Source: Desulfocapsa sp. (GTDB taxonomy: Bacteria; Desulfobacterota; Desulfobulbia; Desulfobulbales; Desulfocapsaceae). From it: 43,697 bases of DNA. The translations under genes and the position numbers were made by a program. The stretch is from positions 1 through 43,697 of the forward strand of contig JAQYVF010000036.1 of assembly GCA_030145625.1 (NCBI GenBank), written 5' to 3'. Positions 1,069 through 21,444 of this stretch are shown here, piece after piece (position 1 is the first letter of the stretch; the number at the start of each line of letters is the position of its first letter). The notes beneath the pieces are model-generated. The model worked only from the letters and a program-made list of their open reading frames with translations. It did no database searches and was not told the origin of the DNA.

Positions 1069-1110
1069 AAAAAAAAAGCCGGGTTGCCCATATCATATGG
1101 CAACCCGGCT
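1069..1110 (-). terminator. Rho-independent terminator forming the riboswitch expression platform
   Basis: Read on the minus strand, a perfect 12-bp stem (1077-1088 with 1099-1110) with a 10-nt loop is followed by an uninterrupted run of T (1069-1077). The upstream arm, AGCCGGGTTGCC, is also the conserved 3' element of the c-di-GMP-I aptamer just upstream. Aptamer closing and terminator formation are therefore mutually exclusive, the usual layout of an ON switch. Confidence 0.85.
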
Positions 1111-1160
1111 ATCAATATCGACCCGTGGCTTTCCGTCTCTGCCTTGCAGCAGATTTGGCT
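1099..1160 (-). promoter_or_regulatory. c-di-GMP-I (GEMM) riboswitch aptamer
   Basis: Reading 5' to 3' on the minus strand, the order is: GCCAAAT; a hairpin CTGCT-GCAA-GGCAG capped by a GNRA tetraloop; ACGGAAAGCC (consensus ACGCAAAGCC); ACGGGTC; a short linker; then AGCCGGGTTGCC. This order of elements is diagnostic of the GEMM-I class. Two positions deviate: G for C in ACGCAAAGCC, and C for G in the 5' GGCAA strand, which leaves one C-C mismatch in the closing P1 stem. Ligand affinity may be altered. Because its 3' strand is shared with the terminator, ligand binding should favour readthrough into the secreted-protein gene. Confidence 0.8.
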
Positions 1161-21369: not shown

Positions 21370-21444
21370 GCGGGAATAACTCAGTGGTAGAGTGTAACCT
21401 TGCCAAGGTTGAAGTCGCGAGTTCGAATCTCGTTTCCCGCTCCA
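21370..21444 (+). tRNA. tRNA-Gly (anticodon GCC)
   Basis: A 75-nt cloverleaf with encoded CCA. Acceptor GCGGGAA (21370-21376) pairs with TTCCCGC (21434-21440). The D arm has CTCAGTGGTAGAG, the anticodon loop is TTGCCAA between AACC and GGTT, and the T arm is CGAGTTCGAATCTCG. U is the discriminator base, and CCA occupies 21442-21444. Confidence 0.97.

Follow-up and report, generated by a model that had tools for sequence, protein, structure and literature searches.

A minus-strand leader in the DNA of a Desulfocapsa sp. carries a GEMM-I riboswitch that very probably senses c-di-GMP and switches transcription on in response. Desulfocapsa is a sulfur-disproportionating genus, and the stretch analyzed here (the window) comprises 43,697 nucleotides of contig JAQYVF010000036.1. 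The element genuinely belongs to the known GEMM-I class and has a known platform, and its aptamer and terminator probably function together as a c-di-GMP ON switch.

Aptamer and shared-strand terminator

When the whole window was compared with all Rfam families, the sole riboswitch reported was a full-length match to RF03167 (c-di-GMP-I-GGC) on the minus strand at 1168-1095, with 66.2 bits (cut-off 59) and E = 1.4e-13; the tool discarded one other match from this clan, with a lower score. The same scan placed a tRNA gene on the plus strand at 21370-21441 (RF00005, 67.8 bits), whose anticodon appears by eye to be GCC. A separate search with RF01051 (c-di-GMP-I) gave 66.5 bits at 1169-1096 (gathering score 35). 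The original prediction had placed the ordered GEMM-I elements in this leader and proposed a covariance-model search, and both families match there above threshold. Its span of 1069-1160 does contain aptamer and terminator but omits 8 nt at the aptamer 5′ end. Aptamer positions 20, 21, 46, 47, and 92 are given in Vc2 numbering. The features are as follows.

1191-1219, minus: tentative promoter, with a TTGACT -35-like box (1219-1214) and TTTATT 17 nt on; footprint in G002 (L218)
1095-1168, minus: GEMM-I (c-di-GMP-I class) aptamer, Rfam model positions 1-80
1158-1159, minus: selectivity base G (1159, Vc2 G20 equivalent) and C21 (1158); Rfam alignment, PMC9262584 and PMC7288161, and our own alignment
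1132-1133, minus: G46 (1133, partner of C21) and A47 (1132), Vc2 numbering; Rfam alignment
1099-1110, minus: shared strand AGCCGGGUUGCC, made up of the 3′ side of P3 and the ligand-pairing C; serves as the terminator 5′ arm in the off state
1077-1088, minus: terminator 3′ arm GGCAACCCGGCU, a perfect 12-bp complement of 1110-1099; hairpin of -24.1 kcal/mol
1069-1076, minus: U-run of the intrinsic terminator, read from the sequence
1011-1016, minus: likely ribosome-binding site GAGGAG; GGGGAG at this place in the G002 ortholog
584-1003, minus: regulated gene for a predicted secreted protein of 139 aa, start ATG at 1003
912-931 in the window, and C12:26974, C17:1391, C109:59670, C133:2931, C165:3288 and C175:957: KVVVIPL-like motif sites

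In the Rfam alignment, the P2 loop of the window (GCAA) is of the GNRA type, and P1 is short and weak, its standard pairs being just U3-A77 and G4-C76. Within P1, U1-U80 alone fails to pair, and C2 is unpaired opposite a U; the C-C mismatch that had been described in P1 was not found in this alignment. Conservation was assessed over 19 copies from the same genome that scored at least 54.7 bits, window included, with four weaker copies left out. Aptamer pairs were formed in 94.8% of cells, a value matched by none of 500 shuffles; helices P1b, P2, and P3 were 97-100% paired, and P1 cells were paired in 67.4%. Covariation of the aptamer helices was seen both over these copies and over 89 matches. 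The ligand-pairing C, at model position 75 (Vc2 C92; C75 in pilM), was kept in 18 copies and was U in one.

The shared strand includes the ligand-pocket bases G74, C75, and C76. As predicted, this 3′ aptamer strand also supplies the 5′ arm of a terminator with 12 uninterrupted base pairs, in which 1110-1099 pairs with 1088-1077 around a 10-nt loop and the U-run follows; the terminator lies about 50 nt upstream of the ribosome-binding site of the 139-codon gene. A shared-strand terminator was present in 19/19 own copies (shuffled control, 12.6%), with the U-run starting directly or one base past the stem in every one. The 12 terminator pairs were formed in 99.1% of cells, and shifting the partner by one column lowered paired cells to 42-52%. 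Because the shared strand sits in both helices, part of this score follows from conservation of the aptamer; changes on both sides of a pair are the more independent part of the evidence. Such changes occurred at four pairs (reached by 20/500 shuffles) and in 16 cells, versus 6.1 in shuffles (16 was reached by 0/500). At the last pair C-G had become A-U, its neighbor had gone from C-G to U-A, and two more pairs had exchanged G-C for A-U. By contrast, additional pair types in the terminator helix were no more numerous than in shuffles (11 versus 10.8; 404/500 reached 11).

Among relatives, 24 of 88 matches were dropped for lack of the strand motif, and 50 of the remaining 64, which have a recognizable shared strand, form at least 10 of the 12 pairs with the stretch preceding a T-run (8.6% in the shuffled control). 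A set from named genomes held, among the matches listed, 89 matches from 80 loci, collected with a pattern that fixes C21 and G46 and leaves base 20 free. Here 24 of 89 were dropped before the count, and 21/65 carried a shared-strand terminator, among the matches listed (control, 4.3%); given this fraction, other platforms may be common elsewhere.

Partition functions were computed for the growing leader of the window, with nucleotides counted from the aptamer start. The probability of lower P3 was 0.87 up to nt 82 and 0.00 from nt 90; the terminator took over between nt 86 and 90 and had 11.2 of its 12 pairs at nt 92. A bound ligand must therefore hold P3 before about nt 86. In the proposed mechanism, the nascent RNA without ligand would refold while polymerase passes about nt 86-90, when strand 1110-1099 would quit helix P3 and pair with 1088-1077 to give the terminator. 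Once c-di-GMP is bound, the aptamer would retain both P3 and the C that pairs with the ligand, and the hairpin would be blocked, so that transcription would run through into the gene for the small secreted protein. Thermodynamic folding leaves aside ligand energy, kinetics, and tertiary contacts, and the direction of control is for this reason one that we infer. As described in PMC9262584, the pilM ON switch has an aptamer and a terminator that share a strand and are mutually exclusive, and terminator formation takes up the ligand-pairing C. Given this pilM-type architecture, ligand-induced read-through is the best reading; the ON switch foreseen in the original prediction gains support from the same strand sharing and from the near-complete pairing of the terminator across the own copies.

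Ligand specificity and competing readings

The selectivity base, model position 10, is G in the window and in 19/19 own copies. It is G in 87 and A in 2 of 89 matches from the genus, family, and order (window included), and G in 86 and A in 3 of the 89 from named genomes, among the matches listed. Five GEMM-I matches carry the cGAMP-type A (L231, L265, L125, L136, and L143); by their titles, L125 is from Desulfopila sp. IMCC35008 and L143 from Sulfurovum sp. C21-G46 and A47 are present in 19/19 own copies, and over 89 matches (window included) the 21-46 pair is C-G in 72, G-C in 13, U-G in 2, and other in 2. The two core positions once flagged as deviating are indeed there, as C21 and G46, but they are the partners of one kept pair in the form commonest among relatives, and they thus represent ordinary covariation and no damage.

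The genome has 32 GGDEF matches, of which 30 loci were listed and 2 partial matches were left out; two of the listed loci are halves of one domain, leaving 29 domains that were read. The residue at the Hypr position, Ser or Asp, we take to be the last of the GHxxGD stretch; it was assigned by motif in 25 domains and by eye in 4 (L056, L061, L062, and L064). Asp was found at this position in 29/29 domains and the cGAMP-synthase Ser in 0/29; PMC6456294 gives Ser in cGAMP-making GGDEFs where diguanylate cyclases have Asp. No match to a SMODS nucleotidyltransferase was found in the genome. Since the selectivity base is G, every GGDEF domain read has Asp, and no SMODS match was found, c-di-GMP is the likely ligand, and on this sequence evidence cyclic di-GMP is very probably the signal sensed, though the aptamer might also bind cGAMP. 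The suggestion of a specificity altered toward cyclic AMP-GMP is not supported by these same observations, its supposed deviations being one swapped pair.

The c-di-GMP ON switch and three other readings, which exclude one another, were weighed. An aptamer for cGAMP (GEMM-Ib), or for both c-di-GMP and cGAMP, on the same ON-switch platform is unlikely. PMC7288161 lists the ligand-contact bases of the Geobacter cGAMP riboswitch 4YAZ, including U13, A14, and C15, and 9 of 11 are identical in the window, C15/C21 among them by the offset of our alignment; the expression platform is also of the Geobacter kind described in PMC9262584. The two contact bases that differ are U13, which is A in the window, and A14, which is G; our alignment equates 4YAZ A14 with the selectivity position and hence with Vc2 G20, a position that, according to PMC9262584, contributes to selectivity but does not strictly determine it. 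Against a cGAMP or dual sensor stand this G in place of A, the Asp in all 29 GGDEF domains read, and the absence of a SMODS match from the genome.

The choice of RF03167 by cmscan as the best family of its clan, at 66.2 bits and above cut-off, would favor a c-di-GMP-I-GGC variant with ligand behavior of its own, yet the same stretch reaches 66.5 bits with RF01051. In addition, model position 37 (the place of Vc2 A47), where the RF03167 consensus has G, is A in the window, in 19/19 own copies, and in 89/89 matches from the genus, family, and order. That consensus G (G47) is presumably the middle letter of "GGC" in the family name, and we regard such a variant as extremely improbable. A relic, in which the aptamer has lost binding and the hairpin terminates or attenuates transcription constitutively, would fit the weak P1 and the free energies without ligand (hairpin, -24.1 kcal/mol, versus aptamer, -15.9 kcal/mol). 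However, the core is conserved, the shared strand covaries, and the G002 ortholog keeps the aptamer and both terminator arms though the spacer has diverged, making a relic very unlikely. Overall, a c-di-GMP-sensing ON switch is the best explanation.

The predicted target gene and the other copies of the switch

The 139-aa protein has a signal-peptide-like N terminus, then ADKVVVVPL, and then a low-confidence beta-rich domain; its model has a mean pLDDT of 61.4, from 4 sequences. No Pfam match of the protein exceeded its cut-off, NCBIfam and PHROGs yielded nothing at E ≤ 1, and its model gave no Foldseek match at E ≤ 0.001. The best VIA-align result was the phiAB6 tailspike (Z 7.5), with Helix agglutinins at Z 5.2; such scores fall in the middling range of the tool, and no function is therefore claimed. 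Of 20 genomes in the genus, counting the own one, 3 carry homologs; among 297 genomes drawn from the phylum, the own genome alone does. The ortholog in G002 (69%) has the same switch directly upstream, and its leader retains the ribosome-binding region as well as the aptamer and both arms. No riboswitch was found on its own strand in the stretch before the G007:C35 ortholog (66%), where a nearby riboswitch points the other way, or in the stretch examined in front of the distant paralog G007:C2 (41-43%). The candidate promoter at 1191-1219 is tentative: its TTGACT box is kept in the G002 ortholog, TTTATT is not, and a consensus promoter scan did not list the pair.

The genome holds at least 23 RF03167 matches at E ≤ 0.001, at least 15 of them over cut-off, and at least 21 RF01051 matches, at least 20 of them over cut-off. 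Each search scored 150 first-look candidates, and the counts may thus be lower bounds. Neither family matched in 14 control genomes. Within the genus, 13 of 20 genomes (own included) have one or more matches, from 1 to 23 copies. A 4.5-Mb genome of the same order, G029, has 24 RF03167 matches, one above the genome of the window.

A readable first gene was found behind 18 of the 23 own copies, with start codons chosen by us. Five copies did not count toward the 18: C121a shares its gene with C121b, C171 sits at a contig end, and no clear gene follows C227, C143, or the weak C30 match. Judged by hydrophobicity, a crude test, 16/18 genes have a signal-peptide-like start, against a baseline of 5/35 long ORFs of the window; the other two are C165a (FAD-linked oxidase) and C146 (AAA protein). 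For several copies the first readable gene starts 300-632 nt from the aptamer start (maximum at C121b), and control of these distant genes is accordingly less sure. Pfam families in first or second genes include beta-propeller, InlB-like repeats, GEVED, Lcl_C, and M14 peptidase, and 7 of 10 downstream proteins tested had no family at E ≤ 0.01. With about twenty copies lying mostly before secreted-looking genes, a set of surface or secreted proteins would be switched on jointly by c-di-GMP. A regulon of about 20 copies, mostly for secreted proteins, in a Desulfocapsa-type bacterium is mildly new. Among the papers searched, none linked GEMM-I riboswitches with Desulfobulb- names, and one, on carbon fixation by its title, has "Desulfocapsa" and "riboswitch" once each.

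GEMM-I elements also occur in tandem: L097:7172-7511 packs four pattern matches into roughly 300 nt, and there are three in L094:5818-6339, and two in the own genome in L031:2904-3135 (C121). At L035:2851-2925 (minus strand), an element of 27.2 bits has a shared-strand hairpin by eye and a KVVVIPL-type secreted-looking protein behind it; it is either a diverged switch or one below the reach of the model.

The KVVVIPL-like motif has seven exact DNA-pattern sites in the genome, versus none for the reversed pattern, and three of these adjoin a riboswitch match, just downstream. In the riboswitch neighbors read, the motif directly follows the signal peptide and the remaining protein differs. A KVVVIPL protein lies within 700 nt at 5/19 own loci, at 6/89 from the genus, family, and order (window included), and at 0/89 from named genomes, among the matches listed. 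These counts argue against a regulon made up mainly of KVVVIPL proteins; since few loci carry one and 3/7 sites adjoin riboswitches, they form one group among several.

Flanks of 150 nt were compared among the own copies. In six of seven members of one subfamily (C12, C138, C133, C30, C121a, and C171), 33-68 nt upstream are alike at 72-82% identity, a likeness seen in 13/15 pairs, among the matches listed. The upstream flank of C1 resembles those of C227 and C22 over 95-101 nt at 72-74%. Downstream flanks are unrelated, except for the tandem pair C121b/C12 and two stretches of <20 nt, and the window flanks had no match among the 19 own copies. This pattern suggests that promoter plus switch may have been copied between loci, and common descent with lost downstream similarity would look the same. 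That promoter, aptamer, and terminator form a copied cassette, placed before unrelated secreted-protein genes in the Desulfocapsa-type lineage, is a tentative proposal that we hold to be possible and slightly doubtful. If true, a c-di-GMP-switched surface protein set of about 20 genes would have been built by copying a cassette, not genes. The loci L027-L032 of the subfamily above (C12, C138, C133, C30, C121, and C171) have very similar promoter-aptamer-terminator leaders before unrelated, mostly secreted-looking genes; the downstream gene of C171 lies beyond the contig end.

Comparison with known systems

The window adds a well-supported GEMM-I ON switch to the known class, and suggests that c-di-GMP is the signal to which a set of secreted proteins in a Desulfocapsa-type bacterium likely responds. 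In the relatives examined, most aptamers whose 21-46 pair is C-G, as in Geobacter, have the base typical of c-di-GMP sensing. They form a natural comparison set for the part that one base and one pair play in the choice between c-di-GMP and cGAMP.

Like RF01051 and Vc2, the window scores above cut-off and has the G20, A47, and C92 equivalents, a GNRA loop on P2, and the same helices. It is unlike Vc2 in its P1b pair, C21-G46, where Vc2 has G21-C46. Like RF03167, it scores above cut-off, and over all 80 positions, but at model position 37 it has A where the family consensus is G. It differs from the Geobacter cGAMP riboswitch 4YAZ, which has A14 (PMC7288161), by the G at the selectivity base. 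As in Geobacter metallireducens pilM (cGAMP, transcriptional ON; PMC9262584), the terminator draws one of its segments from aptamer strand A. Unlike pilM, the window comes from a genome with no cGAMP-type GGDEF among the 29 domains read, and its binding-competent span is about 16 nt by our partition functions, versus the 25 nt reported for pilM in PMC9262584.
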